NCBI RefSeq assembly: GCF_001693515.2
Contig: NZ_CP042968.1
Location: 5,642,001-5,706,000, forward strand
Reading direction: 5' to 3'
DNA: 64,000 bases
DNA from: Bradyrhizobium paxllaeri
Lineage (GTDB): Bacteria > Pseudomonadota > Alphaproteobacteria > Rhizobiales > Xanthobacteraceae
Shown here: positions 120 to 59,158 of the stretch, one piece after another
How positions within the stretch are numbered: position 1 is the stretch's first letter
Layout: each line of letters starts with the position of its first letter
The notes under the pieces: model-generated
Seen by the model: only the letters and a program-made list of their open reading frames with translations
What the model was told of the DNA's origin: nothing
The model's database searches: none
Position numbers and translations under genes: made by a program

Positions 120-872
120 ATGTCAGTTCCCCGCCTCAACCGCATCATCCTCACCGGCGCCGTGCTGTCGCTGGCCGCCGCCGCGAGCGGTTGTTCCTCG
201 ATCGACCGTCTCTCCCAGATCGGCGAGAAGCCGAAGCTGACGGAGATCGAAAACCCGACCACGCAGCCCGGCTACAAGCCGGTGCAGATGCCGATGCCCA
301 AGCCGGAGCAGGCCTCCTACAACGCCAACTCGCTGTGGCGGAACGGCAGCCGCGCGTTCTTCAAGGATCAGCGCGCCGCCCGCATCGGCGATCTGCTGAC
401 GGTGACCGTCAACATTACCGACAAGGCCAACCTGTCCAACGAGACCCAGCGCAGCCGCTCCGCCAAGGAAGACTCCGGCATCACCGACTTCATCGGATCC
501 CAGACGATCACGCAGGCAAACAAGATCCTGCCCGGCAAGATCCTGACCACGGACTCGACGTCATCGAGCGACGGCAAGGGATCGGTCAATCGCCAGGAGT
601 CGCTGACCACCAACGTCGCCGCCGTGGTAACGCAGGTGCTGCCGAACGGCAATCTCGTGGTCGAGGGAAAACAGGAAATCCGCGTCAACTTCGAAATCCG
701 CGAACTGATCGTCGCCGGCATCGTCCGCCCCGAAGACATCCAGAGCGACAACACCATCGATTCCACCAAGATCGCGCAGGCCCGCATCGCCTATGGCGGC
801 CGCGGCCAGATCACCGACGTGCAGCAGCCCCGCTACGGCCAGCAGGTGATGGACGTGCTGCTGCCGTTCTAG
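120..872 (+). CDS. flgH: Flagellar L-ring lipoprotein FlgH
   Basis: A 250-residue outer-membrane lipoprotein that forms the L-ring around the flagellar rod. The N-terminus is a lipoprotein signal peptide ending in a lipobox (AASGC, Cys near residue 25). The family signature follows: an SLW-N segment near residue 70, a central region on rings and divalent TD repeats (GDLLTVTVNI), and a C-terminal GRGQITDVQQPRYGQQ block that ends in VLLPF. Length matches the family. It starts 5 bp after the preceding gene and is followed by a hairpin terminator. Its last 45 bases and downstream DNA are duplicated at 4088-4227, beyond the tct operon. Confidence 0.96.
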   Translation: MSVPRLNRIILTGAVLSLAAAASGCSSIDRLSQIGEKPKLTEIENPTTQPGYKPVQMPMPKPEQASYNANSLWRNGSRAFFKDQRAARIGDLLTVTVNITDKANLSNETQRSRSAKEDSGITDFIGSQTITQANKILPGKILTTDSTSSSDGKGSVNRQESLTTNVAAVVTQVLPNGNLVVEGKQEIRVNFEIRELIVAGIVRPEDIQSDNTIDSTKIAQARIAYGGRGQITDVQQPRYGQQVMDVLLPF

Positions 873-970
873 TTTTTCTCAGAGCTCCCACACTCCATCG
901 CGAACCTAGGCGCGATGAAGTGTATCAACGCGGCCTCCGTCAGCTCCCCTGGCGGAGGCCGTGGTCGTTT
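828..970 (+). repeat. Left copy of a direct repeat: flgH 3' end plus terminator
   Basis: This stretch (end of flgH, its stop and the following hairpin) recurs in the same orientation at 4088-4227 with scattered mismatches and small indels, roughly 80-85% alike by eye. Shared landmarks are the codons for QQ-MDV-LPF, the motif GAGCTCCCACA, and the whole hairpin with the tail GTGGTCG. The two copies bracket tctCBA. Confidence 0.85.
931..961 (+). terminator. Hairpin after flgH
   Basis: Inverted repeat CGGCCTCCG / CGGAGGCCG with a 13-nt loop, 58 bp after the flgH stop and 72 bp before the convergent tctA stop. The T-tract is weak (TCGTTT), so Rho-independent action is likely but not certain. Confidence 0.6.
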
Positions 971-1032
971 GGCTGAATGCCAGGAATGGCGACCTCGCTG
1001 TCGCAATTTCCAAAGGGTACCATCGCCTCTGT

Positions 1033-2556
1033 TCAAAAATCCGGCTCTTCCTCAGCCATCCTGGTCTGGTGGCGCCAATGCTGCCATATGGCCAGCCCGA
1101 CCGAGGTCGCCGCCGCCAGCAGCAGCAGGCCGGAAATCGGCCGCGTCAGGAAGAGCCAGGGATTCGCGTCGGTCATGATCGCACGTACAAGGTTGATCTC
1201 GATCTGGTCGCCGAGAATCAAGCCGAGGATCAGGGGCGCGAGCGGAAAACCGAGCTTGACCAGCACGTAACCAATGACGCCGAAAAGCAGCAGCACGTAG
1301 ACGCTCTGCATGGTGTTGTTAAGCGCGTAGGCGCCGACAACGCAGAGCACGAGCACGACCGGCGCCAGCACCGCCATCCGCACCGACGTCACGCGCAGCA
1401 TCAGCGGCATCAGTGCGAGGCAGATCAGCAGCATGCAGGGATGCGCCAGGATGTAGGCCGCATAGATGCCATAGGCGATATCGGGGTTTTGCGAGATGAA
1501 CAGCGGTCCCGACTGAATGCCGTGGATCGTCATCGCGCCGAGCATCACGGCGGTGACGGCGTCACCGGGAATCCCGAATGCCATAATGGTCATCAGCGAG
1601 CCACTGACATTGGCGTTGTTCGAGGCTTCCGAGGCAATGATGCCCTCGGGATGGCCCTTGCCGAAGCGATCCGGCGTTTTCGAGAATTTCTTGGCCTGGT
1701 CATAGGCCATGACGCTCGATGCGCTGCCGCCGATGGCAGGCAGTATCCCGATGATCAGCCCGACGATCGTTGACCACGCGAGCAGGAATGGCTGCTTGAA
1801 GATTTCCAGGTTCACCTTGAGGTGCGAGAAGCGCTCGAGCCTGACCCCGGCCAGCGATTGCAGCGCGTCGCTGCGCGGCGAATTCAGCTTCTCCAGATCG
1901 GTCATGATCTGCGCGAAGGCAAAAATGCCGATCAGCACCGGGAGAAACGGAAAGCCGCCGCCGATGAACGCCGAGCCGAAGGTGAAGCGCGGCACGCTGC
2001 CGATCGGATCGTGGCCGACCACCGTGATCAACAAGCCGATGGCGGTCGAGATCAGTCCCTTCAGCAGCGACGATTCGCTGAGACCCGCGACCATCGCCAT
2101 CGCGAGCACGAACAGAGAGAAGTACTCCCACGGCCCGAATTCCAGCGCGATCGCCGCAAGCGGCCCGGTGAGAAACACGAGGAACAACGCGCCGAGCAAG
2201 CCGCCCCAGACCGAAGCCCAGACGCCGAGCCAGATGGCGCGTCCCGGCTCGCCATTACGCGCCATTGGAAAGCCGTCGAACGTGGTGGCGATCGAAGAAG
2301 GCGAGCCGGGGATACCAAGCAGGCAGCAGGCGATGAGGCCGCCGGTCGATCCGCCGACATAGACGCCGGTCATCGCCGCAAGGCCCGCCAGCGGATCGAG
2401 CCCATAGGTGAACGGCAGCACCACGATGACAGTCATCGTGATGGTGACGCCCGGAAGAGAGCCGCCGACCACGCCGATGAACGTGCCGGCAAACAGCGGC
2501 AACAGGTATTTCCACTGGGCGATGTTGACGAGGCCGCTCCAGAGCAAATCGAGCAT
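1033..2556 (-). CDS. tctA: Tripartite tricarboxylate transporter large membrane subunit TctA
   Basis: A 507-residue polytopic inner-membrane protein, the channel subunit of a TTT-family secondary transporter for carboxylates. The N-terminal block LLPLFAGTFIGVVGGSLPG and the TGVYVGGSTGG and LLGIPGSPSS motifs are diagnostic of TctA, and a second GIPG motif follows mid-protein. About eleven hydrophobic segments are visible. The ATG at 2556 overlaps the tctB stop (TGATG), so the longer frame reaching 2664 is not used. It is last in the operon tctC-tctB-tctA and converges on flgH. The substrate cannot be read from the sequence. Confidence 0.95.
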   Translation of the reverse strand: MLDLLWSGLVNIAQWKYLLPLFAGTFIGVVGGSLPGVTITMTVIVVLPFTYGLDPLAGLAAMTGVYVGGSTGGLIACCLLGIPGSPSSIATTFDGFPMARNGEPGRAIWLGVWASVWGGLLGALFLVFLTGPLAAIALEFGPWEYFSLFVLAMAMVAGLSESSLLKGLISTAIGLLITVVGHDPIGSVPRFTFGSAFIGGGFPFLPVLIGIFAFAQIMTDLEKLNSPRSDALQSLAGVRLERFSHLKVNLEIFKQPFLLAWSTIVGLIIGILPAIGGSASSVMAYDQAKKFSKTPDRFGKGHPEGIIASEASNNANVSGSLMTIMAFGIPGDAVTAVMLGAMTIHGIQSGPLFISQNPDIAYGIYAAYILAHPCMLLICLALMPLMLRVTSVRMAVLAPVVLVLCVVGAYALNNTMQSVYVLLLFGVIGYVLVKLGFPLAPLILGLILGDQIEINLVRAIMTDANPWLFLTRPISGLLLLAAATSVGLAIWQHWRHQTRMAEEEPDF

Positions 2557-3029
2557 CAGAAACCCGTCCACGCACCGCGTGGCAGCAGCACCAGCAGGTA
2601 TCGTTCGAAGATGAAATAGCTTATCACGGCGGTGCCGAGCGCGATCGTGGCGAGCACAACCCATTGCCGCACCGTTCGCGGGCGATCCAATGCAGCCTGC
2701 AACGCGCCGACGAACAAGACCGTGGCGATGCGAAATCCCAAAAGCGGCAGCAGTGCCACATAGGCGCCGACGATCGCGAATGCGATCACGACCAGGCGAT
2801 AATTTCGTCGCGGCGCGTCGCCCGCGTCGGCCGGCGCGCGGCGCTTCAGGAGGTCCTGCACGACCAGCAGCGCGCTCGCGGCCGCCATCAACGACAGCAC
2901 GATGGCCGGGTAAAAGCCCGGCCCGACCGGGACGATGGGAAGGGACGGAAGCTGAAAGGACTTGACCAGGAGGAACAGGCTGACCGCGAGCAGGATCAAT
3001 CCGGTAATTCCATCGCGGCCGATACTCAT
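2556..3029 (-). CDS. tctB: Tripartite tricarboxylate transporter small membrane subunit TctB
   Basis: A 157-residue membrane protein with four hydrophobic segments, typical of the poorly conserved TctB subunit. The start ITGLILLAVSLFLLVKSF and the segment VGPGFYPAIVLSLM match the family pattern (PxxFP near the second helix). It overlaps tctC by the four bases ATGA at its start and tctA by one base at its end, which indicates translational coupling. It is expected to assemble with TctA in the inner membrane. Confidence 0.92.
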   Translation of the reverse strand: MSIGRDGITGLILLAVSLFLLVKSFQLPSLPIVPVGPGFYPAIVLSLMAAASALLVVQDLLKRRAPADAGDAPRRNYRLVVIAFAIVGAYVALLPLLGFRIATVLFVGALQAALDRPRTVRQWVVLATIALGTAVISYFIFERYLLVLLPRGAWTGF

Positions 3030-3988
3030 TTCTTGATCAGGCCGAGATCGGTCATGACAACCTTGTTCTCGTTGTCGATCTTGGCGAGGAACTGCGCATA
3101 GTCACTGGCATTGAGGAACGCCACGCGGGTGCCCTGCAGTTTCATCGCTTGAGCAAAACTCGGCTCCTTGGTCGCCTTGGCGCAGCCCTCCTCGAGCTTG
3201 ACGCGCACCGGTGCCGGCGTCCCTTTGGGGACGAAGATGCCGCGCGCTACTTCGTACACGATGTTCATGCCGAGCTCCTTGAGCGTCGGCACGTCGGGCG
3301 CTTCCGGATCGCGCTTCTCGCTCGCGATCGCGATGTAGCGCAGCACGCCGGCTTCGACCTTGCCCTTCTGCGTCAGGTTGGAGTCCGTGAGATTGACGTG
3401 GCCGCCGAGCAGCGCGTTCATCCGCGGGGCCAGGCCGTCGTAGGACACGAACTTGAATTTCACGCCGGCCGCCTTCTCGATCATTGCCGGGAAGATATGG
3501 CTGGTCGAACCGAGCGTGGCGCCGACCGTGATCTCGCCCGGGCGCTTCTTGGCGTCGTCGGCGAGTTCCTGCCAGTTCTTCCAGGGCGTTTTGGCGCTCG
3601 CGGTCAGCACCGAAGGTGTCGCTGAGACCAGGCAGATCGGCTCGAAATCGCTGTATTTGACATCACTGATGCCCGCGTAGAACGTCAGATGGATATAGTC
3701 GTGCACGGCGTAGACCGTATATCCATCGGGCGCCGCGGCCTTGGCCTCGCGCGCGCCGGTGGTGCCGGATGCGCCGCTGACATTGGCGACGACCACGGGT
3801 TGGCCGATGTGCTTCTGGAGTTCGGCGGCGAACGGCCGGAAGATATTGTCGGTATCGCCGCCCGCGGCCCATGGCACGATCATCTTGATGGGGCGGTCGG
3901 GATATTGCGCCATCGCCGGCGCCGATAAAGCAGCCAGCACCCCGGCCAGCGCGGCAGCGCCGGCCATCGTCACCAATGTCCTTGCCAT
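3026..3988 (-). CDS. tctC: Periplasmic tricarboxylate-binding protein of the TctC/Bug family
   Basis: A 320-residue secreted solute receptor. A signal peptide of about 27 residues ends AMA-QYPDRPIK, and the mature start YPDRPIKMIVPWAAGGDTD is the hallmark of Bug-type receptors. Further family motifs are VVVANVSGASG, an AAPDGYT segment, and NALLGGHVNLTDSN. It is first in the tctCBA operon, as usual, and would deliver an unidentified carboxylate to TctAB. No regulatory two-component pair (TctDE) lies nearby. Confidence 0.94.
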   Translation of the reverse strand: MARTLVTMAGAAALAGVLAALSAPAMAQYPDRPIKMIVPWAAGGDTDNIFRPFAAELQKHIGQPVVVANVSGASGTTGAREAKAAAPDGYTVYAVHDYIHLTFYAGISDVKYSDFEPICLVSATPSVLTASAKTPWKNWQELADDAKKRPGEITVGATLGSTSHIFPAMIEKAAGVKFKFVSYDGLAPRMNALLGGHVNLTDSNLTQKGKVEAGVLRYIAIASEKRDPEAPDVPTLKELGMNIVYEVARGIFVPKGTPAPVRVKLEEGCAKATKEPSFAQAMKLQGTRVAFLNASDYAQFLAKIDNENKVVMTDLGLIKK

Positions 3989-4087
3989 CCGTCATCCTCC
4001 CAGTGTCGTCTCGTGGGCCATTCAGGCTCTCTTTCGGGGGATAATAACAGCCGAGCCCCGCAGGGGAAAGCCCTGCGGCGGCTCCAT

Positions 4088-4227
4088 GCCCGCGACAGCC
4101 AGCAGGCGATGGACGTGCCGCTGCCGTTCTCTTCTCCCGAGCTCCCACATCTCGTTGCGAACCAGGCGCGACGGGGATGTTCAACACGGCCTCCGTCAGC
4201 TCCCCTGGCGGAGGCCGTGGTCGCTTT
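4088..4227 (+). pseudogene. Orphan copy of the flgH 3' end and terminator
   Basis: Second, diverged copy of 828-970. The flgH reading frame is recognisable (QQAMDVPLPF against QQVMDVLLPF in the intact gene), but the stop codon is lost and nothing upstream resembles the rest of flgH. It keeps the complete hairpin. It lies between the tctC promoter region and the DUF3551 gene and marks the right edge of the tct cassette. Confidence 0.8.
4186..4218. terminator. Hairpin within the flgH remnant
   Basis: Perfect 10-bp stem ACGGCCTCCG / CGGAGGCCGT with a 13-nt loop, followed by GTCGCTTTT. It is the duplicate of the hairpin after flgH. It now lies about 57 bp beyond the end of the minus-strand DUF3551 gene and could serve that gene. 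Confidence 0.5.
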
Positions 4228-4274
4228 TGACCGATCATCGCGAAGGTAACGAATGCCTGTCGCGGCGTCCGGCT

Positions 4275-4532
4275 TCAGTGCGGACGACGACGCGAGCGGT
4301 TCTTGTCGATGAGCTCGGCGTTGGCGCCGAAATTGCGGTTCTCTGTACAGGAAGCCGTTCGGCCCGAAGCCGCGGCCTGGCACTGCGCGTTGGTCGAGTA
4401 GATGCACTCGCCCATCCCGCCGGCGAAATCGTCACCTTGAATGCAATAAGGATAATCCCTCGCCGAGGCCGCGCTCATGCCGGTTAGCAAGACAACTGCC
4501 GATGTCACGAAGGCAACAAATACGATACGCAT
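4275..4532 (-). CDS. Small secreted DUF3551 protein
   Basis: An 85-residue protein with a Sec signal peptide (MRIVFVAFVTSAVVLLTG, cleavage near ASA-RDYPYC). The mature part matches DUF3551, a family abundant in Bradyrhizobium: RDYPYCIQG, a GxGECIYSTNAQCQA block, and ASGRTASC. Four or five cysteines suggest disulfides in the periplasm. The C-terminus is basic (KNRSRRRPH). Function is unknown. The gene stands alone, with the flgH remnant downstream. Confidence 0.85.
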   Translation of the reverse strand: MRIVFVAFVTSAVVLLTGMSAASARDYPYCIQGDDFAGGMGECIYSTNAQCQAAASGRTASCTENRNFGANAELIDKNRSRRRPH

Positions 4533-4830
4533 GTTTCCCTCCTACGCCAATGCGGCATTCGTTGCGCCGATCTCGGAAGCGCCGCGTGAGCTATTTCACA
4601 CCGCGCGCGTCACTGTTAGGTGATGGCGCGATGTAGCTGCACCGCAAATCTCATCGCTCCGCGAGCAATTGCCGGAATACTCGACTGGCAATGCGCCTGT
4701 TCAAAACGTAACGCAGGAACTCCGCTGCTCGCGAGGCTCGCATCGCTTTTGCGACGACGCGTAGCCTTCCAATCAGGAACGTTTCCTCACGCCCTTCGTT
4801 TGCTGTCCATCAATCCCTGGAGGAAAATTC
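4533..4830. other. Intergenic, no gene supported
   Basis: About 300 bases between the divergent DUF3551 and PRC-barrel genes. It must hold both promoters, but no convincing -35/-10 pair, operator or RNA structure was recognised. The only clear element is the GGAGG ribosome-binding site just before 4831. Confidence 0.5.
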
Positions 4831-5190
4831 ATGGCTTTGGAAGCAAACGAAACCGGCAACCTGATCGGCAGCGACAAGGTCGAGGGAACTGCGGTCTATG
4901 GCGCCGATCGCAACAAGATCGGCTCGATCGAACGCGTCATGATCGACAAGAAGAGCGGCAGGGTTTCCTACGCCGTGCTGTCGTTCGGCGGCTTTCTCGG
5001 CATCGGCGACGATCACTATCCGTTGCCCTGGCAGTCGCTGAAATACGATACCTCGCTCGGCGGCTACGTCACCGGCGTAACGGAGACGCAGCTCAAGGGC
5101 GCGCCGCACTACGGCAACGACAACGCGTGGAACTGGAGCGACCCGGTCAGAACCCGCGCTGTCAACGACTATTACGGCGTCGCGATCTGA
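4831..5190 (+). CDS. PRC-barrel domain protein
   Basis: A 119-residue soluble protein consisting of one PRC-barrel domain: IGSDKVEGTAVYGADRNKIGSIERVMIDKKSG, then VSYAVLSFGGFLGIGDDHYPLPW and a final YYG motif. Such stand-alone stress-type PRC-barrel proteins are common in Bradyrhizobium. The ATG is preceded by a strong CTGGAGGAAAATTC site. It is monocistronic, with a perfect Rho-independent terminator 23 bp after the stop. The biochemical role is unknown. Confidence 0.9.
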   Translation: MALEANETGNLIGSDKVEGTAVYGADRNKIGSIERVMIDKKSGRVSYAVLSFGGFLGIGDDHYPLPWQSLKYDTSLGGYVTGVTETQLKGAPHYGNDNAWNWSDPVRTRAVNDYYGVAI

Positions 5191-5213
5191 TGGCGGTCAC
5201 GCCTGCCCTTCAC

Positions 5214-5241
5214 AAGGCCCGCCTCGATGGCGGGCCTTTTT
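5214..5241 (+). terminator. Rho-independent terminator after the PRC-barrel gene
   Basis: Perfect stem AAGGCCCGCC / GGCGGGCCTT with a 5-nt loop, running straight into TTTTT. Confidence 0.92.
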
Positions 5242-5338
5242 GCTGGCAGGCGTGATCGCGAACGCCAGCTCGCATCTTCCCGTGGGTAGAGAACTATTCC
5301 GGCTGCTTCGCGTTGGGACCATTCGAAAGGGCAGCACG

Positions 5339-6374: not shown

Positions 6375-6378
6375 GGCC

Positions 6379-41189: not shown

Positions 41190-44100
41190 ATGGCGAACAA
41201 TCCGAAGAAGGCGAAAGATCCCACCGAAGTCGCGCTCTCTGCCATTCAGGAAGCGCTCAACATCAGTGATACGTCCGTCAACCCCAACCGAAATTCGATC
41301 GGCGGCGAACTTGCGCCGCCGGCCATGCCCTCCGCCGCACCTTCCTATTCGGGCGCGCCGTTCGACACGCGCGGCGGCGCCGAGCGGCCCGTGTTCGATC
41401 CGATCGAAGAACCGCGCAGCCCCCGTCGCGCCGCCAATGACGATCGCGAAACCATCGGACAGATTCTGCAAGCGATCCAGAAGAACCACCCTGCGCGCAG
41501 CGTCTACACGCTTGCCACCGTGTTTGGCGGCGTCTGGGTGCTCGGTTGCGCCCTGCTGACCATCAGCTTCCTGCCCTCGCTGCAGGCGGCGATCGGACAG
41601 AGCGGCGGCGTGCTGGTGCTCGCCGGCCTTGCGGCGTTGTTCTTTGCGCCGGTGCTGTTGTTCTACTTCCTCGCCAGCCTCGCCTGGCGCGGCCAGGAAA
41701 TGCGGATGATCGCGCAGTCGATGGCACAGGTCGCAATCCGCTTCTCCGAGCCCGAGGGCGCCGCCGCCGACTCGATGGTGACCGTGGGCCAGGCGATCCG
41801 CCGCGAAGTCGCCGCGATGGGCGACGGCGTCGAGCGCGCGATCGCGCGCGCCGGCGAACTGGAAACGCTCGTCGCCAATGAAGTCGCAGCCCTCGAGCGC
41901 GCCTATACCGACAACGAAGTGCGCATTCGCGCGCTGCTGCAGGACATCGCCCATCAGCGCGACAATCTGGTCGGTCAGGCCGAGCAGGTTCGCAGCGCCA
42001 TTTCCGGCGTCCAGATCGATCTGCGCCACGATATCGCGCTGATCTCGGATGCGATCGCCTCGCGCGTCGACGAGGTCGCAAAAAGCATCACCGGCGCGCT
42101 GGAAGAGCGCGGCCAGCACATCACGAGCGCGCTGAGCCACGCCGGCGACAACATGATCCTCGCGCTCGGCGAGCGCGGCGGCGACCTGCTCGACCGCCTG
42201 GAGGAAGCCAGCGCCGAGACCACGCGCGCCGTGCTCGACGCCTCCGAGCGGCTGACCACCAGCCTCAACTTCAAGACCGGCCACGTCCACGACGAGTTCG
42301 TCGATCTGGCCGACCGCGTCCACGAGATGCTGAACGAACGCATCGACCGCATCACCGGCGAGTTCGAGCAGCGCTCCTCGACCATCGTCGACGGCATCTC
42401 CGACCGCACCGAACAGGTCCACGACTCCCTGAAGAACTCCTCCGACTCGCTGCTGCTCGAGCTTGAGCTGCGTTCGGGCGATCTCGTCAGCAAGATCGAC
42501 GATGCCGGCAACCGCCTGGCGAGCCGCATCCTCACCTCCGGCGACAAGGCCAGCGACGCGCTCGACGTGACCGTGAACACGCTGGTTGCCAAGGTGATCA
42601 GCCAGACCGAGAACGCGCATGACAGTCTCGCGCTGCAGATGAGCGCGTACGACGAACTGGTGAAGAACCAGGGCGCGGAGCTTGCGGAAAAGTTCGCCCG
42701 CGACAGCGGCACGCTCGGCGCACTGATCACGCGGCACATCTCGGAGTTCGACCGCACCGTCAAGACCTTCGGCGGCGAGATCGTGGAACGAATGGGCGCG
42801 CGGACCCAGGAGATTTCGGACAGCCTGAAGAACTACGTCGACACCTTCGACACCCGTCTGGTCTCGAATAGCGGCGAGATCACCGCTTCCCTCGACCAGC
42901 GGCTGCTGCAGTTCGAAACCCAGCTCGGCACCCGCGTCAGCAGCCTCGACAACTCGCTCGAGGGCAAGATCAAGTGGTTCGACGAGGCTGTCGACGGCCG
43001 CCTGAAATCGCTCGAGACGACGTTCGACACCCGCGCCAGGTCCGTCACCGAAACCATCGACAACCGCCTCAGCACGCTGTCGGGCTCGCTGACCGACGGC
43101 GCGGCGCAGGCGATCCAGTCGATCGACCAGCGGCTCAGCCTGCTCACCTCCTCGCTGACCGAAGGCACCGCCCAAGCCATTGCAGCGGTCGACCATCGTA
43201 TTGCCAACGTCACCGAAACCATCGACGGCCGCAGCGCCCATTTGACCGACACCATCCAGGCGCGGTTCCAGGAAATTCACCAGGGCATGGAGACGCGGGT
43301 CGGCGAAATCGCGAGCGGCATTGAGGCCCGGGTCGGCAATCTCACCAACGGCATCGAGACCCGCGTCGGCGACATGGCCAGCGGCATCGAAACCCGGGTG
43401 GGCGCCCTTGCCGGCGACATCGATACCCGCGTTGCGCAATTCGAGGATCTGCTCGGTTCGCGCATCGAGGCCGTGGCAGGCCGGATCGAAAGCAGCGGCC
43501 GCCAGGCCAGCGACGACCTGATGTCGCGCGCCGAAATGCTGTCCTCCGGCATCAAGTCGCATGTCGAGGACGCCGAGCGTTCGCTGACCAACCTCGTGGT
43601 CAATACCTCCGAGACCATTCAGACCGGCGCGCGCACTGCGCAGCAGGCACTGCTGTCGGTTTCCTCGGACGTCGGCGCGCAACTGAAACTGACCTCGGCC
43701 GAGGTTGAAGCCGCCCTCACCGCCGTCGGCACCGGCGCCGCCACGTCGATCCTGACCAGCGCCAGGGATGCGCAGACCACGCTGGCGTCGATCTCCTCCG
43801 AGGCCGCCACGCAGATCAAGTCGCTCGCCGCCGACGTCGAGCGCACGCTCTCGGCCGCAGGCGACGCCACCGCCGCATCGGTTCTCTCAGGCGCGCGCGA
43901 GGCCCAGAGCACGCTGGTGACCGCGTCCGCAGACGCCGCCAACCACGTCAAGTCGCTCGCCATCGATGTCGAGCGTTCGCTGTCGATCGCCGGCACGGCC
44001 ACCGCCGAGGCCGTCACCGCCGGTGCCCGCGAAGCCCAGAGCACGCTGGTCGCCGCCTCCACCGAGGCCGCCAATCAGGTCAAGTCGCTCGCCGCCGACG

Positions 44101-46520
44101 TCCAGCACTCGCTGTCGATCGCCGGCACGGCGACCGCCGAGTCGATCACAGCTGGCGCGCGCGAGGCCCAGACTACCCTGATGAGCGCGTCCGCCGAAGC
44201 GTCGACCCAGGTCAAGTCGCTCGCCGCCGACATCGAGCGTTCCCTTTCGATGGCCGGCAACGCCACCGCCGAGTCGATCACGACGGGCGCGCGCGAGGCC
44301 CAGAACACGCTGATGACGGCGTCTTCGGAAGCCACCAACCACGTCAAGTCGCTGGCGATCGACGTCGAGCGCACGCTGACCGCGGTCGGCGCCGCCGCCG
44401 CCACGTCCCTCCTCGGCAGTGCGCGCGAGGCGCAGAGCTCGCTGTCTGCGACCTCTACGGAGGCTGCGAACCAGATCAAGGCGATCGCCGCCGACATGGA
44501 GCGTTCGCTCGGCGCCGTCACCGCCTCCACGACCGACACCATCCAGACCACCGCGCAGAACGCACAGAGCGCGCTGGTTGCCGCAACCAACGAGGTCAGC
44601 TCCAAGGTCAAATCGACCTCGGCCGATATCGAGCGTTCGGTGCTCGCCGCGAGCAGCAATTTCGGCTCGACGATGACCGGCAAGACCGACGAAATCGTCA
44701 CCTATGTTCAGCAGCAGACCGACCGTCTGGCGCAGATCGTCGACAGCCGCCGCGGCTCGCTGATCGAGGCACTCGGCACCAAGGCCACGCAACTGACTGG
44801 TGACATCGACCGCGTCACCGCCGACGCGCTGAAATCGATCGAAACCCGCGGCCAGGCATTCTCGCAATCGATGTCGACCCACGGCTCGGACGTCGCGCGC
44901 ACGATCACCACCGCCGGCGACCTCGCCACCGGCGCGGTGGCCAAGTCGCTGAAGGACCTCGAACAGGCGTCGCGTTCGGCCATCGACCAGTCGCGTCAGG
45001 TGTCGATCGCCGCCGTCACCGAGATGCAGGAGACCAGCAAGATCCTGCGCACCGACACGGTGGCGCTGTTCGAGCGGCTGCGCGAAGGCAACATCCTGCT
45101 GCAGGAAGTGCTGACCGGCGCCCACGACAACCTCAACTCGCTGGAACGCGCGCTGGTGACCCGCGTGGCCGACTTCGTATCCGCCATGAACGACGTCACC
45201 GCCCGCAATGGCATCGCTACCCAGACCCTGGAAGACCAGCTCACGGTCTTCAACGGCAAGACCACCAAGGCGCTGGAAGATCTCGGCTCGCTCTCCAGCG
45301 AGTTCGAGAAGCACGGCAAGGCGCTGGTCGATGCGGCCGGCGTGGTCGAAAAGGCCAACCTCTCCACCACGACGTCGGTCGCCGACCGCAAGTCGCAGCT
45401 TGAATCGCTGGTGACCACCATCGATCTGCGCACCACCGACCTCGACCAGCGGCTGTCGCGCTTCACCGGTCTGCTCGATGAATCGCTCGCCGCGGCCGAA
45501 GAGCGTGCCCGCGACATCGCGCGCGTGGTCGCGGAGACCGCAGGCGCCGGATCGGCCGCGATCAGCCGCCAGTTCGAGGCGGTGCGAACTGCGGCCGAGA
45601 ACGAGCGGCAGCAGACCCTCCATGCGATGAACGATCTGTACCAGCAGAGCACGCATGAAACCGATGAGATGTTCAAGCAATCGACCGAGAAGTTCGCGGC
45701 GATGGTGCAGACCATGAAGCAGATGGCGGCCGAGATGCATCAGGAGCTGGAGGCGACGCGCAACGAGCTGCGCCGCGGCGTGCTTGAGATGCCGCAGGAA
45801 GCCGCCGACAACACCGCGCAGATGCGCAAGGTGATCGTCGACCAGATCGAGGCGCTGGCCGAGCTCAACCGGATCGTCGCCCATCACGGTCGCGGGCTCG
45901 ACGTCGTGACCGCCGGTCGTGCCGGCGTACAACGCCAGGAAGAGCCGGTGATGGCCGCCGCTGTCACTGGTCGCAACGAGGTGCGCATGCGCGACGCCGG
46001 CAGCGCGTCGACCCTGCCGCCGCCGGATCTCGGCATGCCGATGCCCGCCCAGCGCCGCACCGAAGCCCCGCCGGTCTCGCCGGCTGCTCAGGACGCGGGA
46101 CGCGACGGATGGCTGTCCGATCTTCTGAGCCGCACCGATGCCGGTGGACGCGAAACGCCGCGGGGCCGGCCGCAGGGCGCGGCCAATCCGCTGGAATCGC
46201 TGTCGCTCGACATCGGCCGGCTGATGGATCGCAACCTCGCCGCTGAAATGTGGGATCGCTACCAGCGCGGCGAGAGCAAGGCGTTCACCAAGCGCCTCTA
46301 CACGCCCGCCGGCCAGAAGGCGTTCGACGAAGTCTCGCGCAAATACCGCGCCGACCGTGGCTTCAAGCAGACGGTCGACCGCTACATCGCCGAGTTCGAA
46401 CGGCTGCTGGATGAGGTCGCACGCGATGATCGCGGACCGCAGGCGCTGCGCAGCCACCTCACCTCGGAGACGGGCATGGTCTACACCCTGCTCGCGCATG
46501 CAGCGGGCCGGCTGGGGTAA
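41190..46520 (+). CDS. Giant coiled-coil polar protein, GPR/RgsE-like
   Basis: 1776 residues. The N-terminal ~100 residues are soluble and Pro/Ser-rich, followed by two transmembrane helices (about 105-128 and 138-162). More than 1400 residues of almost continuous coiled coil follow with apolipoprotein-like periodicity, then a short conserved C-terminal domain (SLDIGRLMDRNLAAEMWDRYQRGE, YRADRGFKQTVDRYIAEFERLL). This architecture matches the growth pole ring protein of Agrobacterium and RgsE of Sinorhizobium, which organise unipolar growth in Rhizobiales. Five 11-residue repeats (701-755) and eight 44-residue repeats (814-1165) are exact in length. It is followed by a strong terminator. Confidence 0.82.
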   Translation: MANNPKKAKDPTEVALSAIQEALNISDTSVNPNRNSIGGELAPPAMPSAAPSYSGAPFDTRGGAERPVFDPIEEPRSPRRAANDDRETIGQILQAIQKNHPARSVYTLATVFGGVWVLGCALLTISFLPSLQAAIGQSGGVLVLAGLAALFFAPVLLFYFLASLAWRGQEMRMIAQSMAQVAIRFSEPEGAAADSMVTVGQAIRREVAAMGDGVERAIARAGELETLVANEVAALERAYTDNEVRIRALLQDIAHQRDNLVGQAEQVRSAISGVQIDLRHDIALISDAIASRVDEVAKSITGALEERGQHITSALSHAGDNMILALGERGGDLLDRLEEASAETTRAVLDASERLTTSLNFKTGHVHDEFVDLADRVHEMLNERIDRITGEFEQRSSTIVDGISDRTEQVHDSLKNSSDSLLLELELRSGDLVSKIDDAGNRLASRILTSGDKASDALDVTVNTLVAKVISQTENAHDSLALQMSAYDELVKNQGAELAEKFARDSGTLGALITRHISEFDRTVKTFGGEIVERMGARTQEISDSLKNYVDTFDTRLVSNSGEITASLDQRLLQFETQLGTRVSSLDNSLEGKIKWFDEAVDGRLKSLETTFDTRARSVTETIDNRLSTLSGSLTDGAAQAIQSIDQRLSLLTSSLTEGTAQAIAAVDHRIANVTETIDGRSAHLTDTIQARFQEIHQGMETRVGEIASGIEARVGNLTNGIETRVGDMASGIETRVGALAGDIDTRVAQFEDLLGSRIEAVAGRIESSGRQASDDLMSRAEMLSSGIKSHVEDAERSLTNLVVNTSETIQTGARTAQQALLSVSSDVGAQLKLTSAEVEAALTAVGTGAATSILTSARDAQTTLASISSEAATQIKSLAADVERTLSAAGDATAASVLSGAREAQSTLVTASADAANHVKSLAIDVERSLSIAGTATAEAVTAGAREAQSTLVAASTEAANQVKSLAADVQHSLSIAGTATAESITAGAREAQTTLMSASAEASTQVKSLAADIERSLSMAGNATAESITTGAREAQNTLMTASSEATNHVKSLAIDVERTLTAVGAAAATSLLGSAREAQSSLSATSTEAANQIKAIAADMERSLGAVTASTTDTIQTTAQNAQSALVAATNEVSSKVKSTSADIERSVLAASSNFGSTMTGKTDEIVTYVQQQTDRLAQIVDSRRGSLIEALGTKATQLTGDIDRVTADALKSIETRGQAFSQSMSTHGSDVARTITTAGDLATGAVAKSLKDLEQASRSAIDQSRQVSIAAVTEMQETSKILRTDTVALFERLREGNILLQEVLTGAHDNLNSLERALVTRVADFVSAMNDVTARNGIATQTLEDQLTVFNGKTTKALEDLGSLSSEFEKHGKALVDAAGVVEKANLSTTTSVADRKSQLESLVTTIDLRTTDLDQRLSRFTGLLDESLAAAEERARDIARVVAETAGAGSAAISRQFEAVRTAAENERQQTLHAMNDLYQQSTHETDEMFKQSTEKFAAMVQTMKQMAAEMHQELEATRNELRRGVLEMPQEAADNTAQMRKVIVDQIEALAELNRIVAHHGRGLDVVTAGRAGVQRQEEPVMAAAVTGRNEVRMRDAGSASTLPPPDLGMPMPAQRRTEAPPVSPAAQDAGRDGWLSDLLSRTDAGGRETPRGRPQGAANPLESLSLDIGRLMDRNLAAEMWDRYQRGESKAFTKRLYTPAGQKAFDEVSRKYRADRGFKQTVDRYIAEFERLLDEVARDDRGPQALRSHLTSETGMVYTLLAHAAGRLG
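43290..43454 (+). repeat. Five 33-bp coding repeats (11-residue hendecads)
   Basis: Five units starting at 43290, 43323, 43356, 43389 and 43422 encode (E/D)(T/A)RV(G/A)-x6. An 11-residue period is the hendecad of right-handed coiled coils and of apolipoprotein helices. Confidence 0.9.
43629..44684 (+). repeat. Eight 132-bp coding repeats (44 residues each)
   Basis: Units start at 43629, 43761, 43893, 44025, 44157, 44289, 44421 and 44553 with no length variation. Typical unit: AREAQSTL, then EAANQVKSLAADVERSLS, then a TATAE segment. Forty-four residues are four hendecads. Units 3-6 are most alike at DNA level; the outer ones are more diverged. Confidence 0.92.
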
Positions 46521-52414: not shown

Positions 52415-52490
52415 CAATTCAATTGCGATTCGGGCAATATCGTGTTGTTTCGTTATCGCAAGGCGCGCTGATTTGCGCGAAGAGTTTGAC

Positions 52491-54002: not shown

Positions 54003-54944
54003 GTGCAAACCAAGATCATCGTCAATCCGATGGCGAACAAGGGCAACTGCGGCAAGCGCTGGCCGCAGATTTGCGCTGAACTCGAAAAACATCTTGGCCC
54101 GCTTGGCTCCGCGCACGTTGCTATGACCCGCGCGCCCAGCCACGCCACCCACCTGGCGCGGGAAGCGGTCGATGCCGGCTATCGCCGCCTGGTCTCGGTC
54201 GGCGGCGACGGCACCTTCAGCGAGATGATGAACGGGGTGATCGCGGATGATCGCCCGATTGCATCAGACCTGGTGCTGGCGCAACTGCCGGGCGGCACCT
54301 CGAACGAACTCTCCCGCTCCTTCGGCCAGCTTTCGCTCGCCGAGGCCGGCAAGGCCATCGCCATGGGGCATACGCGCGACATCGACGTGTTCCGCGCCGA
54401 CGCCAAGGGCTATGCCGGCGGTCAGGTGACGCGCTACGGCTTCGTGCTCGCCATCGTCGGCGCCGCCGCCACGATTTCCTGGCGCGCCCAACGCGTGCCG
54501 CTGCTGAAACGATTGGGCCCGATCAGCTATGTGCTGATGACAGCGTTCACGTCGCTGACCTACAGCCCGCGCCTCTATCGTATCCAGATCGACGACGAGG
54601 CCGAGCAGCGCCTGCCGATGTGGTCACTGATGCTGTGCAGCTTCGACGGCGCCGGCGAAGGCCTGATGCTCGCGCCGGGCGCCGATCCCGCCGACCGCAA
54701 GCTCGACCTGATCATGGTCGGCGACATGGGGCGCTGGGAGAGCCTGACCAGGATCGTCCCCAACCTCGCCGACGGCAGCTATCTGGAACACCCAAAGGTC
54801 TCGCGGCGCCACGCGGTGCGGATCACCATCGACAGCGATGATATGGTCCGCGCCGATGTCGACGGCGAAAGCATCGGGCAATTGCCGATGTCGGTGACGA
54901 TGTTGCCGTTCCACCTGAAGGTGGCGGCGGTCAATCGGTCGTAG
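54003..54944 (+). CDS. Diacylglycerol/sphingosine-kinase family lipid kinase
   Basis: 313 residues from GTG 54003. The DAGK catalytic domain is clear: KIIVNPMANKGNCGKRW, the GGDGT nucleotide motif in VSVGGDGTFSEMMNGV, and LPGGTSNELSRSFG. It resembles YegS/DgkB and phosphorylates a diacylglycerol or related lipid. The C-terminus (RADVDGESIGQLPMSVTM) is duplicated at 58849-58993 beyond the efflux cassette. Confidence 0.93.
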   Translation: MQTKIIVNPMANKGNCGKRWPQICAELEKHLGPLGSAHVAMTRAPSHATHLAREAVDAGYRRLVSVGGDGTFSEMMNGVIADDRPIASDLVLAQLPGGTSNELSRSFGQLSLAEAGKAIAMGHTRDIDVFRADAKGYAGGQVTRYGFVLAIVGAAATISWRAQRVPLLKRLGPISYVLMTAFTSLTYSPRLYRIQIDDEAEQRLPMWSLMLCSFDGAGEGLMLAPGADPADRKLDLIMVGDMGRWESLTRIVPNLADGSYLEHPKVSRRHAVRITIDSDDMVRADVDGESIGQLPMSVTMLPFHLKVAAVNRS

Positions 54945-54985
54945 GATGCCCACTCCCGTCGCACAGGGTTTCATTACGACGCCGA
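54799..54985 (+). repeat. Left copy of a direct repeat: lipid-kinase 3' end
   Basis: The last ~145 bases of the kinase gene and ~40 bases after its stop recur in the same orientation at 58849-59035. Most differences within the coding part are at third codon positions. Confidence 0.9.
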
Positions 54986-54997
54986 CGTGCACGATCC

Positions 54998-56596
54998 TCA
55001 ATGGCCCACGTGAACAGCTCCACCAAGCTTGATCGTCCGAAGCATCATGGCGAGTGGCACGGCCGCAAGCGAGATCAGCATCAAGACCCAGAAGGCATCC
55101 ATGTAGGCGAGGTACGATGCCTGTGTCTGCACCTGTTGTCCGATCCACTGGATCGCCTGATCATGCGCTTGGGCCAGTGAACTTCCGTGGCCAGCGAAGA
55201 AACTCGTGATCTGCTGCAACGTATCCTGATATTGCGGATTGGACGGGAGCACCTGCTCGACCAGCCGGCTCTGGTGGAACTGCTCGCGGTGCATCAACAC
55301 GTTGGAGACGATCGATACGCCGATCGAGCCTCCGGTGTTCCGGGCTGCGTTGATCAGGGCGGAAGCCTGGTCTGTCTTGGATGGTTGAATGCCGTCATAG
55401 GATGCGGCCATGATCGGCACGAAGATTAGCGGCAGGCCGACGCCGAGCAGCATGCGCGAGCGCGCCATGAACCAGAAGCCGAGATCGGCGTAAACGTTGG
55501 TCATGGCGTACATGGAAAGAGCGCAGACCACTGCGCCCGCGGCGATCAAATATCTGGGCTGCACCTTGGCGGCCAGACGACCGACCACGAACATCATCAT
55601 CATGGTGACCACGCCGCCCGGCGAGAGCACGAGGCCCGCCCAGGTGGCGGTGTAGCCGAAATCCTGCTGCACCAGTTGCGGCAGGAATTGCGTGGTCGCG
55701 AGCAGGATCGCACCGGTCGCCAGCATGACCAGAAAGCAGGCGCCGAACTGGCGCGTCGCCACCATGTGCAGGTCTATGATCGGATGGCGGCGGCTCAACT
55801 CCCATGGAATCATCAGCACAAACGCCAGGATGCAGATGACCGTGAACGTCACGATAAAGCGTGAGCCGAACCAGTCGTCCTCGAGGCCACGGTCCAGCAC
55901 GACCTCCAGGGCACCGAGGAAGGTCGCGACCAACACGAAGCCGACCACATCGAATCGATTGCCTCGCTGCTGCGCTTCCGTACGCGCGGTTGGGGACTCC
56001 TGCAGAAGCAGCCAGATCAACGCCACCGCGATCATGCCGACCGGCACGTTGATCAGGAAACACCAGTGCCAGGACATATTGTCGGACAGCCAGCCGCCGA
56101 GCGTCGGCCCGACCACCGGGGCCACAACCACGGCGACGCCGAACACCGCAAAAGCCTGACCGCGCTTCGCCGGTGGAAAGGAATCGGCCAGGATCGACTG
56201 CGCGACCGGCACCATGCCCCCACCGCCGAAGCCCTGCAGGATGCGGCACAACAGCAGCGCATTCAGATTCGGAGCAAAGCCGCACAGCAGCGAGCTGAGC
56301 GTGAATGCTCCGAGACAGATCAGGAAGAACGTTTTGCGGCCCAATGTCCGGGCCAGGAAACTGGAGGCCGTCAGGATGATGGCGTTGGAGACGAGATAGG
56401 TGGTGACGACCCAGGACGCCTCGTCCTGGCTCACCCCCATGCCGCCTGCAATATAGGGCAGCGCAACGTTGGCGATGGTGGTGTCAAGCACCTCCATGAA
56501 GCTTGCGAGCGCGACCAGGATAGCGATCATCCACGGATTAGCCACGCCGCCGCTCGCGGATGCGGGAAGCTCGGCTCGGATCGCAGCGGAGCTCAC
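54998..56596 (-). CDS. emrB: EmrB-type DHA2 multidrug efflux permease
   Basis: 532 residues, 14 transmembrane segments. DHA2 motifs: FMEVLDTTIANVALPYIAGG, QDEASWVVTTYLVSNAI, LCRILQGFGGGGMVPVAQSIL and the motif C region AVVVAPVVGPTLGGWLSD. Its GTG start overlaps the emrA stop. Works with EmrA (and an outer-membrane channel not encoded here) to expel toxic compounds. It converges on the lipid-kinase gene with 53 bp between stops. Confidence 0.94.
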   Translation of the reverse strand: MSSAAIRAELPASASGGVANPWMIAILVALASFMEVLDTTIANVALPYIAGGMGVSQDEASWVVTTYLVSNAIILTASSFLARTLGRKTFFLICLGAFTLSSLLCGFAPNLNALLLCRILQGFGGGGMVPVAQSILADSFPPAKRGQAFAVFGVAVVVAPVVGPTLGGWLSDNMSWHWCFLINVPVGMIAVALIWLLLQESPTARTEAQQRGNRFDVVGFVLVATFLGALEVVLDRGLEDDWFGSRFIVTFTVICILAFVLMIPWELSRRHPIIDLHMVATRQFGACFLVMLATGAILLATTQFLPQLVQQDFGYTATWAGLVLSPGGVVTMMMMFVVGRLAAKVQPRYLIAAGAVVCALSMYAMTNVYADLGFWFMARSRMLLGVGLPLIFVPIMAASYDGIQPSKTDQASALINAARNTGGSIGVSIVSNVLMHREQFHQSRLVEQVLPSNPQYQDTLQQITSFFAGHGSSLAQAHDQAIQWIGQQVQTQASYLAYMDAFWVLMLISLAAVPLAMMLRTIKLGGAVHVGH

Positions 56597-57876
56597 AGGT
56601 CGCTCCTCAGCCGCTCATAGAGGGACGGCCTCGGATCAATCCGCGCGGTGGGGACTACCGACATGCCCGGGCCGAGCGCGACGTCGGACGGCGGGTTTTC
56701 CATGTCGATCTTGACCGGCACGCGCTGGACAATCTTGACGTAGTTACCGGTGGCATTCTGGGCCGGCAGCAGCGAGAACGCGGTGCCGGACCCGGGCTGG
56801 ACGCTCGCGACATGACCGTGGATCATGCGTTCCGGATAGGCGTCGATCGCGAGCGTCACCGGATCGCCCGGCTGCATGTGGTCGAGTTGAGTCTCCTTGA
56901 AGTTCGCTGTCACCCAAATCTGATCCGGCACAAACATCGCCAGGCTGTTGCCAGGCTGGGCGAATTGACCGGCCGCGGCGCTCAGGTTGACGATGCGCCC
57001 CGGCTGGGCCGCCGTCACCGTCGTGTAGGACAGATTGAGTTGCGCCTGGTCGCGCTGGGCCTTTGCCTGCGCGAGACTCGCAACAGCGCTCTTGCGCTGC
57101 GCCTTCAGCGCCTCGACTTGCCGATTCGCCAGCTTGAGGGTTGCCTGCGCGCTCAGAAGTGCCGCCTGCTGCTGATGCAGTTGCGAGGTGAACTGCTGGG
57201 CGTTCTGAACCGTGCCATAGCCTGTTTGCTCCAGGTGTTGGAAGCGCGCCGCCTGCTGCTGCGCGAACACCAGTGCCGCCTGGGCCTGATCCACCTGCGC
57301 CTGGTTGGCGCCGATCTGTGCCTGCTGCACATCGAGCTGCGCGTCGATATTCTCGATGCTGGCTTGCGCCGCCGCGACCTGCGCCTGCGCCTGCTCGAGC
57401 GCCGTGCGAAAGTCGCGGTCATCGATGCGGGCGATCACGTCGCCGGCTTTGACATGCTGGTTGTCGGTGACGGGGACGGCGGTGATGTAGCCTGTGACTT
57501 TCGGCGCGATCGAAAACTGGCGCGCCGCGACGAAGGCATCATCGGTGGATTCGAAATGTCTCGCATAGTCCATGTAGAGGTAGCCACCGGCGACCGCGGA
57601 GGCGAGGAGCGCAGCCCCGATCGCGGAGACAACCGGGCGGCGACGCAGGAAGCCGGCCCTGCGCTCTTTGCTGGTCGCCGGCGGCCGAACTGCTTCCGGC
57701 GGATCGGCTGAGGCAGGCGCTCTGGCCGCCGGATCTTCGTGCGGGAGCCGAGCCCGCTCAGTGACTTCCTGCTGGTCGAATTCGACGCTGGGCTGGCGGG
57801 GATCCGGGACGGGTCGCGGGCTTTCGACGCCGTGGAGCAGTCGTCCGTCCCGTTCCAATACATTTTGTTCGGACAT
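56593..57876 (-). CDS. emrA: EmrA-type membrane-fusion (HlyD-family) protein
   Basis: 427 residues. A ~75-residue cytoplasmic, Pro/Arg-rich N-terminus, one transmembrane helix (VVSAIGAALLASAVAGGYLYM), then the biotinyl-lipoyl-like half (ESTDDAFVAARQFSIAPKVTGYI, PVTDNQHVKAGDVIARID). A long alpha-hairpin with Gln/Ala-rich coiled coil follows, and the second lipoyl half (LSYTTVTAAQPGRIVNLSAAAGQFAQPG). The N-terminal extension is longer than in E. coli EmrA. First gene of emrA-emrB, divergent from tetR. Confidence 0.94.
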   Translation of the reverse strand: MSEQNVLERDGRLLHGVESPRPVPDPRQPSVEFDQQEVTERARLPHEDPAARAPASADPPEAVRPPATSKERRAGFLRRRPVVSAIGAALLASAVAGGYLYMDYARHFESTDDAFVAARQFSIAPKVTGYITAVPVTDNQHVKAGDVIARIDDRDFRTALEQAQAQVAAAQASIENIDAQLDVQQAQIGANQAQVDQAQAALVFAQQQAARFQHLEQTGYGTVQNAQQFTSQLHQQQAALLSAQATLKLANRQVEALKAQRKSAVASLAQAKAQRDQAQLNLSYTTVTAAQPGRIVNLSAAAGQFAQPGNSLAMFVPDQIWVTANFKETQLDHMQPGDPVTLAIDAYPERMIHGHVASVQPGSGTAFSLLPAQNATGNYVKIVQRVPVKIDMENPPSDVALGPGMSVVPTARIDPRPSLYERLRSDL

Positions 57877-57963
57877 GCGGCCGCTCCTGCTGCTAGGCGA
57901 CGCCTCAGCGACACCGAGAAAAGAAACTGCCCCGTTTCGATTTGCAGGTAATCAGGCGAAGCG

Positions 57964-57994
57964 GTTCCTCAATAGGAACGAAACGGTTTCGTTC
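57964..57994. promoter_or_regulatory. TetR operator between emrA and tetR
   Basis: A perfect 19-bp palindrome, GAACGAAAC-G-GTTTCGTTC (57976-57994), overlapped on its left by a second inverted repeat GTTCCT-CAAT-AGGAAC (57964-57979). It is 82 bp or more from either start codon. A palindrome of this size is the usual TetR-family operator. Confidence 0.85.
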
Positions 57995-58025
57995 TCTTTA
58001 AACATCACAGTTGCGTGGTTACTTG

Positions 58026-58763
58026 ATGCTCAGCGGAGATCAGAAGCGCGGTCCAGTCGCGATGAGAGCCAGCAGTTTGTTGAAGAAGAAGCCGGCGCCG
58101 AAGCGGGCCAAAGTGCGCTTTGGCCGCCCGCCGAAGGAGCTTGCCGGCGAGGTTGATACCCGCATTCTCGATGCGGCGCGAAAGGTGTTTCTTGAGCGCG
58201 GATTTGAAGGCGCGAGCATCGACGAGATCGCCGAAGTTGCACGTTCGGGTAAGCCCACGATCTATGCCCGCTTCCGCGACAAGCGGGCGCTGTTCACTGC
58301 AGTGGTAACGCGGGACATCCTATCTCGCATCGCAGAGTTCAAGGCCGAGGTGCCAACCGGCACAACGATCGAGGCGCGCCTTATAAGCGCCGCGAGCACC
58401 CTGCTGCATTGGGGTTTGGACAGCGAGAGGATTGCACTGATGCGGCTGGCAATCGCGGAATCGCGCCGCTTCCCTGATCTGGCGAGCACGGTCGGCCGGA
58501 CGGCGCGTGATCTCAGCACAAAACTCGGGGTCCGGTTGCTGGGCGAGTTGACGCAAGCCGACGAGCTTCGTGCGCTGCCCGCTTTTGCCCCGAAGCAGCT
58601 GACAACGACTGCACGCTTCTTCCTTGATCTCATCGCCGTGCCGATGCTGTTCCGAGCGCTGTTCGAGGTGGACCTCAAGACGCTGGACGCAGAGATCGAC
58701 GCGCACGTGGCACGCAGCGTTCCGTTCTTTCTTGCCGCCTGCAGGCGCGGCGGCGTGCGCTGA
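58026..58763 (+). CDS. TetR-family repressor of the emrAB-type pump
   Basis: 245 residues from ATG 58026; ATG 58062 (MRASSLLKKK) is an alternative. The N-terminal HTH is VDTRILDAARKVFLERGFEGASIDEIAEVARSGKPTIYARFRDKRALF, preceded by a Lys/Arg/Pro-rich arm (KKKPAPKRAKVRFGRPPKE) like an AT-hook (GRPP). The C-terminal ligand domain has an AcrR-type helix pattern. Divergent from emrA with a perfect palindrome between them. Confidence 0.92.
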   Translation: MLSGDQKRGPVAMRASSLLKKKPAPKRAKVRFGRPPKELAGEVDTRILDAARKVFLERGFEGASIDEIAEVARSGKPTIYARFRDKRALFTAVVTRDILSRIAEFKAEVPTGTTIEARLISAASTLLHWGLDSERIALMRLAIAESRRFPDLASTVGRTARDLSTKLGVRLLGELTQADELRALPAFAPKQLTTTARFFLDLIAVPMLFRALFEVDLKTLDAEIDAHVARSVPFFLAACRRGGVR

Positions 58764-59158
58764 GCCTTGCAAAGGCATCACTGACCGGGTCCTGAAGCCG
58801 ATACGCCGTCATGTGCCATCGCGCCTGCTCGGAAGATGGCGGACTGTACTCGCGGCGGCACGCAAGCCGGATCACCATCGACAGCGATCGCATGATCCGG
58901 GCCGATGTCGACGGCGAAAGTATCGGGCACCTGCCTATGTCGGTGACGATGCTGCCATTCCACCTGAAGGTCGCAGCGGTCAATCGGTCGTAGCGCGCCA
59001 CTCCCGTCGTACCTGGCTTCACTACGCCGCCGCGACGCCGCTCTGGAACGTCAGTTGGGGGGCGCTACGTCGAACAGGCAGGTCCGAAAGCGGCCGGATA
59101 GCGGACAGTCGTAGAATTGGCAAAACCGACGCGAATGACCCAAGGTGGACATGCGGTC
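58764..59158. other. Region between tetR and merR without an intact gene
   Basis: Holds the lipid-kinase remnant (58849-58993) and its downstream homology to about 59035. The remaining ~120 bases before the merR stop show no feature. Confidence 0.6.
58849..59035 (+). pseudogene. Orphan copy of the lipid-kinase 3' end
   Basis: Encodes 47 C-terminal residues nearly identical to the intact kinase (about 43 of 47, for example RADVDGESIGHLPMSVTM) and the stop TAG at 58991-58993, followed by ~40 bases of shared downstream DNA. Upstream of 58849 there is no similarity to the kinase. Differences are mostly synonymous, so this copy diverged while part of a functional gene, probably in another strain. 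Confidence 0.9.

Follow-up and report, generated by a model that had tools for sequence, protein, structure and literature searches.

How does a small operon come to lie behind an intact gene, bordered on its far side by a second copy of that gene's own 3′ end, while carrying no recombinase? This question is posed twice within a 64,000-nucleotide stretch of the Bradyrhizobium paxllaeri genome (contig NZ_CP042968.1, positions 5,642,001–5,706,000; hereafter the window), which forms part of the 8.38-Mb single contig designated G000. Judged by FlgH, which shows 99% and 97% identity to named records, the organism probably stands near B. lablabi and B. jicamae. At locus 1, a tctABC cargo lies behind flgH, and at locus 2, a cargo of MFS, HlyD-type, and TetR-type genes lies behind a DAGK/YegS-type lipid kinase gene (DAGK). 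The right repeat copy at each locus, a direct duplicate of the host-gene 3′ end beyond the cargo, is referred to as the scar. As the best reading of both loci, held with moderate confidence, we propose homologous capture in which a single junction is illegitimate, with ordinary recombination thereafter, based on the repeats, empty sites in relatives, non-sister alleles in three of six carriers, a common right junction, and differing start points of DAGK fragments.

At locus 1, flgH (120..872, plus strand; PF02107, 195.6 bits) leads into the left repeat copy (829..970, plus strand; defined by alignment), which comprises the flgH 3′ end, a 3′ untranslated region (UTR) of type A, and a hairpin read from the sequence at 931–961. 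An aligned linker (971..1032) connects the flgH terminator to tctA; G001 has a similar linker, and G019 and G028 carry a different stretch. The cargo genes all occupy the minus strand: tctA (1033..2664; PF01970, supported by an open reading frame and a gene call, with a start possibly as late as 2571), tctB (2556..3029; PF07331), and tctC (3026..3988; PF03401). Alignment places the right junction at 4080..4089, within about 10 bp, where shared bases were read by eye only. Homology to tctABC loci sited elsewhere in the genomes G006 and G075 stops at 4078–4080, beside the scar (4089..4226, plus strand; by alignment), which consists of the flgH 3′ end, a type B 3′ UTR, and a hairpin. The repeat copies, 829–970 and 4089–4226, align directly over 143 columns with 84% identity and include about 45 bp of flgH and about 100 bp of 3′ UTR with the hairpin, making the repeat mostly untranslated. 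The arrangement at the right junction, in which tct upstream DNA precedes the flgH tail, is common to all five aligned carriers; CSA112 has lost this junction. To the right follow a DUF3551 gene (4275..4532, minus strand; PF12071), which in G023 and G024, both empty, lies next to flgH, and a conserved downstream gene used as the right anchor (4831..5190, plus strand; gene call and alignment of relatives), which we tentatively label PRC.

Locus 2 repeats this architecture. The host gene (54003..54944, plus strand) has both PF00781 (DAGK_cat) and PF19279 (YegS_C) domains, and its 3′ end together with a cargo-linked 3′ flank forms the left repeat copy (54800..54984, plus strand; alignment). The cargo consists of an MFS efflux gene (54998..56596, minus strand; PF07690, MFS_1) and an HlyD-type membrane-fusion gene (56593..57876, minus strand; PF16576 and PF13533), presumably EmrB-like and EmrA-like, respectively, and a TetR-type regulator (58011..58763, plus strand; PF00440 and PF14246). 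The scar (58849..59032, plus strand; alignment) contains the gene 3′ end and a flank resembling that of G024, a relative with an empty site, and matches 54800–54984 directly over 185 aligned columns with 85% identity. Separately, a short stretch ending CCGGATAGCGGAC lies at 59082–59150; four genomes (the window and L062, L063, and L064) have it where the efflux cargo ends on the right, and it looks like a dispersed intergenic element.

The anatomy put forward in a preliminary description of the window was borne out, namely intact host genes on the left, directly oriented duplicate ends of about 140–190 bp, and main operons converging on the host gene (tctABC, and MFS with HlyD, all on the minus strand). 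Every cargo gene could be assigned to a transporter or regulator family, in keeping with the reported lack of an integrase or transposase; the window contains no tRNA, which led us to reject tRNA-associated integration; and locus 1 and locus 2 have unrelated repeats, listed as separate repeat families. At locus 2 the scar is not a fixed part of the cassette, which occurs without it in G001, G057, and G038.

A DNA search of 80 genomes of the genus, G000 included, returned matches in all 80, and the flgH region was compared in 18 of the 79 relatives, picked by their matches. Five of these (G023, G024, G031, G050, and G052) have empty sites, with flgH and its terminator followed by the downstream block and no cargo; the DUF3551 match is absent in G050 and G052. 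The lone gene end of G023 matches the ends of both window segments, which overlap on it by 142 bp. The tctABC cargo with scar sequence is found in four relatives (G001, G054, G019, and G028, the last retaining 42 bp of the scar), YidB-like, Transgly_assoc, and hybrid histidine kinase genes lie there instead in three (G038, G039, and G057), and other genes in the remaining six. At the flgH site, several alternative cargoes, or none, thus lie between the same conserved genes, as at integrase-less recombination hotspots. The intervening DNA is variably present at both loci, DAGK lacking the efflux cargo in six of the 11 neighbourhoods described below.

Cargoes can also adjoin one another. Between flgH and tctABC, the genomes of G019, G028, B. 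hereditatis, sp. 190, and CSA112 carry YidB-like and Transgly_assoc genes; these genes are followed by terminator-like remnants of 31 and 48 bp in CSA112 and sGM-13 and, in G028, by a terminator-like piece and a second, diverged DUF3551-like stretch. Such remnants would represent an earlier arrival at the same gene end. Among 80 named flgH neighbourhoods (1.52 Mb, 1027 genes; in four of them the downstream part is shorter than 4 kb), three have a scar proper downstream and two more a terminator-only piece, and one further match of 20 bp lies upstream. Two additional observations concern flgH. A similar insert of about 50–60 bp (of the GGGCATAATCCC... type) occurs just past the flgH stop or the scar in L043 and L223, in G024 and in the right copy of sp. 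190. A second flgH-like stretch in G000 (G000:C1:5881084-5881729; 74%) suggests, from its sequence, a second flagellar system.

The origin of the two flgH ends can be traced through their 3′ UTRs, which fall into two types, A and B, among near relatives. Six carriers were typed on both sides. In G000, the left copy is type A, 1.2% from G038 and G057, and the right copy is type B, nearest to the left copy of G054 and then to G023. G001 likewise combines a left A with a right B copy, the latter being at the same distance (6.1%) from G024, the empty sister, as from the left copy of B. hereditatis. The type B of the G000 and G001 right copies is the type of five empty or other-gene relatives. G054 shows the reverse order, B on the left and A on the right. 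Both copies are A-like in G019, both are A in sp. 190, and both are B in B. hereditatis, whose right copy is nearest the empty B. archetypum (90.5%). The best matches of the right copies in G001 and B. hereditatis include the empty sisters G024 and G050, respectively. Left and right copies share 66 of 81 identical columns in G000, 56 of 82 in G001, 71 of 81 in G019, and 66 of 81 in G054. Because the types differ in three of the six carriers (G000, G001, and G054), simple or local duplication does not fit those carriers. A long target-site duplication was rejected on the same grounds, the three same-type carriers offering no objection to it.

Locus 2 was compared with 15 further places, comprising 11 DAGK neighbourhoods and four efflux cargoes elsewhere. 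DAGK is intact without the efflux cargo in G024, G023, G019, G054, G031, and G033. In G000, the 3′ flank of the right copy is like those of the empty G024 and of G052, and the flank of the left copy is like those of G001 and G057, which carry the cargo. Between two copies of the DAGK 3′ end, G052 contains another insert, about 0.9 kb long, which by eye looks like a decayed choloylglycine-hydrolase-type gene. The right copy in G052 begins at the equivalent of window position 58941, about 90 bp further into the gene than the 58849 of the window. Fragment starts that differ in this way between two cargoes argue against a fixed att core at DAGK, a comparison that involves a single pair, with a diverged G052 copy (75.6%). 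As a separate observation, DAGK is internally deleted in G057 and G050, not found in G038, and reduced to its 3′ part in G052 (L063, L064, L072, and L073); with damage in four of 11 relatives, the host gene of locus 2 is not strictly core.

A model for both loci would begin with cargo arriving on DNA of a related strain that carries the donor version of the host-gene end. One side of the incoming DNA would pair with the resident gene end by homologous recombination, presumably dependent on RecA; on the left of both loci, homologous sequence of flgH or DAGK runs on without a break, so that homology is present on one side of the insert. The far side would be joined illegitimately inside the resident gene end, through short homology or Ku-type end joining. 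Ku-family matches occur at four places in G000, two of them in two pieces, and as judged from sequence, end-joining genes may therefore be present. The host gene, to the left of the cargo, would stay intact but end in imported 3′ sequence, and the resident 3′ end would become the scar on the right. Cargo could later be gained or lost, and alleles switched, through the homology of flanks and repeats, with mixed alleles attributed to exchange between the copies or with other strains. Both the order of these events and the enzymes involved are inferred.

The preliminary description had left two routes open, homologous single-crossover integration of circular DNA or the action of an enzyme encoded elsewhere. 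Recombinase-free homologous entry is the better supported, given the empty sites, differing alleles, differing fragment boundaries, and lack of a cargo recombinase, and an enzyme from elsewhere is disfavoured. A Campbell-type single crossover, in which a circle bearing the cargo and a fragment of the host-gene end integrates by one homologous exchange, would yield the same anatomy, with an intact gene on the left and a fragment on the right; the start of the fragment would be set by the circle, and non-sister alleles would be expected. However, the circle would have to consist of just a gene tail and an operon, the cargo contains no plasmid or phage gene, and the data are explained without such an intermediate. 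We therefore consider this route rather unlikely.

A different view is that cargo and repeats are old and that recombination between the repeats emptied individual sites. Phylogenies of the cargo and of the flgH region (21 rows) bear on this. The tctABC genes at flgH form one clade over several lineages (eight of eight rows, support 100/100), apart from those of G006, G075, and the metagenome-assembled genome L221, and the empty state requires five changes on the flgH-region tree, at least three of them forced by well-supported branches; both results are compatible with an ancestral cargo. The trees also disagree. B. hereditatis groups with G000 and G001 on the cargo tree (100/99) and with B. 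archetypum on the flank tree (80/63, weak), where G000 and G001 group with B. lablabi (100/100); the flank tree makes sisters of sp. 190 and G019 (100/100), which the cargo tree does not (87/87). This disagreement is compatible with exchange through flank homology, and the scatter with repeated loss as well. Nevertheless, loss alone leaves the gene tail behind the cargo unexplained, more distant relatives carry other genes at the site, and in G006 and G075 the tctABC genes occupy another place, their homology to locus 1 stopping at the scar. Ancestral presence followed by repeated loss thus appears improbable as the full account.

Integrases often target gene 3′ ends, and a further rival is site-specific insertion, in which the repeats would be attL and attR and the recombinase would have been lost in the meantime or be encoded at another place. 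Tyrosine recombinases are present in 14 of 14 genomes searched. Nonetheless, a domain search detected no recombinase among the cargo genes of either locus, and a Pfam scan of 131 representatives of the 848 proteins in the flgH and DAGK neighbourhoods revealed none among the 25 of 167 families listed. With seven recombinase and transposase queries from the same genome, phmmer matched one of the 848 neighbouring proteins, a serine recombinase (PF00239 and PF07508) at L248:14061-15680 in B. macuxiense BR 10303. It lies 3.3 kb downstream of flgH, separated from it by six called genes, and so near a contig end that the limits of its element are out of view. Its presence in one of 80 flgH neighbourhoods speaks for site-specific insertion; a single match among 848 proteins, and not next to flgH, speaks against it. 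Together with the differing DAGK fragment starts and the unrelated repeats of the two loci, this makes site-specific insertion very unlikely. Least likely of all is local duplication, in which the gene and its surroundings were tandemly duplicated and the second copy decayed to a tail: it accounts for a direct, downstream fragment and meets no objection in the same-type carriers G019, sp. 190, and B. hereditatis, but the fragment abuts native tct upstream DNA abruptly, empty relatives lack the cargo, and the copy types of G000, G001, and G054 differ.

The generality of capture behind gene ends was assessed in five 400-kb blocks, window included, totalling 2.0 Mb or 24% of the genome. Probes of 200 bp, taken from the 3′ end, the 5′ end, and the middle of each of 1361 genes with a length of 450 bp or more, were searched against the 15 kb flanking the gene on each side, and matches outside called genes covering at least 30 bp of the gene were counted. 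The 3′-end probes gave seven direct downstream matches, both window loci among them, one direct upstream, and no inverted match. The controls gave one direct and one inverted match for 5′ ends and one direct and two inverted for middles; two of the three inverted matches trace to a single gene that has an inverted copy at a distance of 12 kb. With a threshold of 45 bits, five downstream and one upstream direct matches remain for 3′ ends and none for either control. The repeats of loci 1 and 2 score 76 and 196 bits, above chance; among the other 11 end-probe matches listed outside called genes, eight score 37–60 bits and three 159–313 bits, the latter in transposase-type DNA or DNA that we read as insertion sequence-like. 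When matches in called genes were admitted and paralogues removed, direct matches numbered eight downstream and three upstream for 3′ ends, five for 5′ ends, and seven for middles, and inverted matches zero, one, and one, respectively. Since the controls rise, the 3′-end excess is modest, and since short matches are added in every class, those of 37–45 bits are not trustworthy alone. In the 80 flgH neighbourhoods, which are related rather than independent, all eight matches are direct 3′-end matches (five downstream, three of them flgH, and three upstream), with none from 5′ ends or middles and none inverted; two of the upstream matches appear to be adjacent flagellin genes truncated where the locus ends.

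The five downstream cases of at least 45 bits are the two window loci, two among transposase or accessory genes, and aroA, the sole further core-gene case in the scan that is backed by relatives. aroA and cmk are adjacent in many relatives. The gene order is aroA–TctC–cmk in G001 and G024 and aroA–X–cmk in G003 and G006; in G000 it is aroA–X–aroA tail–TctC–cmk, the tail being 45 bp long, lacking the last 19 bp of the gene, and lying exactly between the two cargoes. A gene tail as the border between two cargoes is what the capture model predicts. In favour of a general route, the scan thus offers a small excess and one further core-gene case, which falls short of demonstrating a major route. 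Other candidates were set aside: a SUMF1-sulfatase pair (G000 2515360), which occurs together in many relatives with no empty site seen; aspS (3947779), whose cargo gene is present in many relatives, whose 75-column fragment reaches only 37 bits, and for which genomes with a single joined copy (e.g., G015) leave polarity open; and a transposase-type gene (5579582) and an accessory gene (5787169), which were not counted as core-gene cases.

Several points weigh against homologous capture as the explanation. The empty sites may be losses rather than the ancestral state, and the polarity of gain and loss is unproven. Three DAGK cargo carriers (G001, G057, and G038) lack the right scar. A donor arrangement, with tctABC beside flgH and without a scar, was not found except in L221, where tctABC of the other clade lies in the flgH–PRC interval (+3702 to +6654 from the flgH stop) with no scar match, possibly a second arrival of the same operon. 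The allele pattern is mixed (B/A in G054, A/A in G019 and sp. 190, B/B in B. hereditatis), and any microhomology at the right junction is judged only by eye from the sequence. The genome-wide excess is small and shrinks once fragments in called genes are admitted, and G031 has X beside TctC sequence without the aroA tail, which requires a later loss under the model.

More broadly, gene-end scars might be a general Bradyrhizobium footprint of one-ended homologous capture, by which operon-sized DNA is added and stacked behind core genes without a recombinase, perhaps helped by the several genes for Ku-type end joining, the resident tail marking the border of each arrival; we put this forward tentatively, as a possibility. 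Many integrase-less variable regions leave no visible footprint. Where a scar preserves the resident allele alongside an imported tail, it would reveal the orientation and order of each arrival, and natural one-ended recombination could be tallied directly in genomes rather than deduced from transformation experiments in the laboratory.

Two side observations from the same genome may be recorded here. A mirror case at G000:C1:5847220-5849053 consists of a 262-bp copy (72%) of an O-antigen-ligase-like gene end and flank, upstream of that gene and adjoining another tctA–tctB pair (labels by eye). At 43662–44621 of the window, six overlapping 300-nt copies with 132-nt spacing lie inside a long coding frame and correspond to a tandem repeat protein.

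The architecture invites comparison with several known systems. Integrative islands at gene 3′ ends can form serial arrays, as in the staphylococcal cassette chromosome (SCC) at rlmH. Such islands resemble the present loci in having an intact gene on one side, a displaced tail on the other, and the potential for stacking; in contrast, the cargo described here has no recombinase and no fixed core. In the minimal mobile elements of Neisseria, conserved genes enclose interchangeable cassettes that move through the homology of their flanks. Both of these properties are shared, and gene-tail scars at the cargo edge constitute the difference.

The preliminary description had suggested that this mode of addition, if general, would be under-described. 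Hotspots without mobile elements were, however, described in 2017, with double recombination at flanking core genes as the model (PMC5635113), and the passages of that study considered here portray sites much like ours, in which conserved genes enclose one or another small cargo, a mobile element is not recognisable, and flank trees are discordant. Unlike the present loci, no gene-tail scar is mentioned in those passages. A mechanistic parallel is homology-facilitated illegitimate recombination, in which one-sided homology is followed by illegitimate joining at the other end (PMC2884548, in the part considered), the same combination of one-sided homology and an illegitimate far junction that we propose. 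That process is known from laboratory transformation of competent species, whereas ours is deduced from natural genomes of Bradyrhizobium. A study on end joining and the acquisition of heterologous DNA appears in the reference list of PMC7719229. A narrow literature search found no title or abstract on gene-tail scars in Bradyrhizobium. What we describe is thus a combination of known processes, in which the readable scar, and its use to order successive arrivals, may be new.

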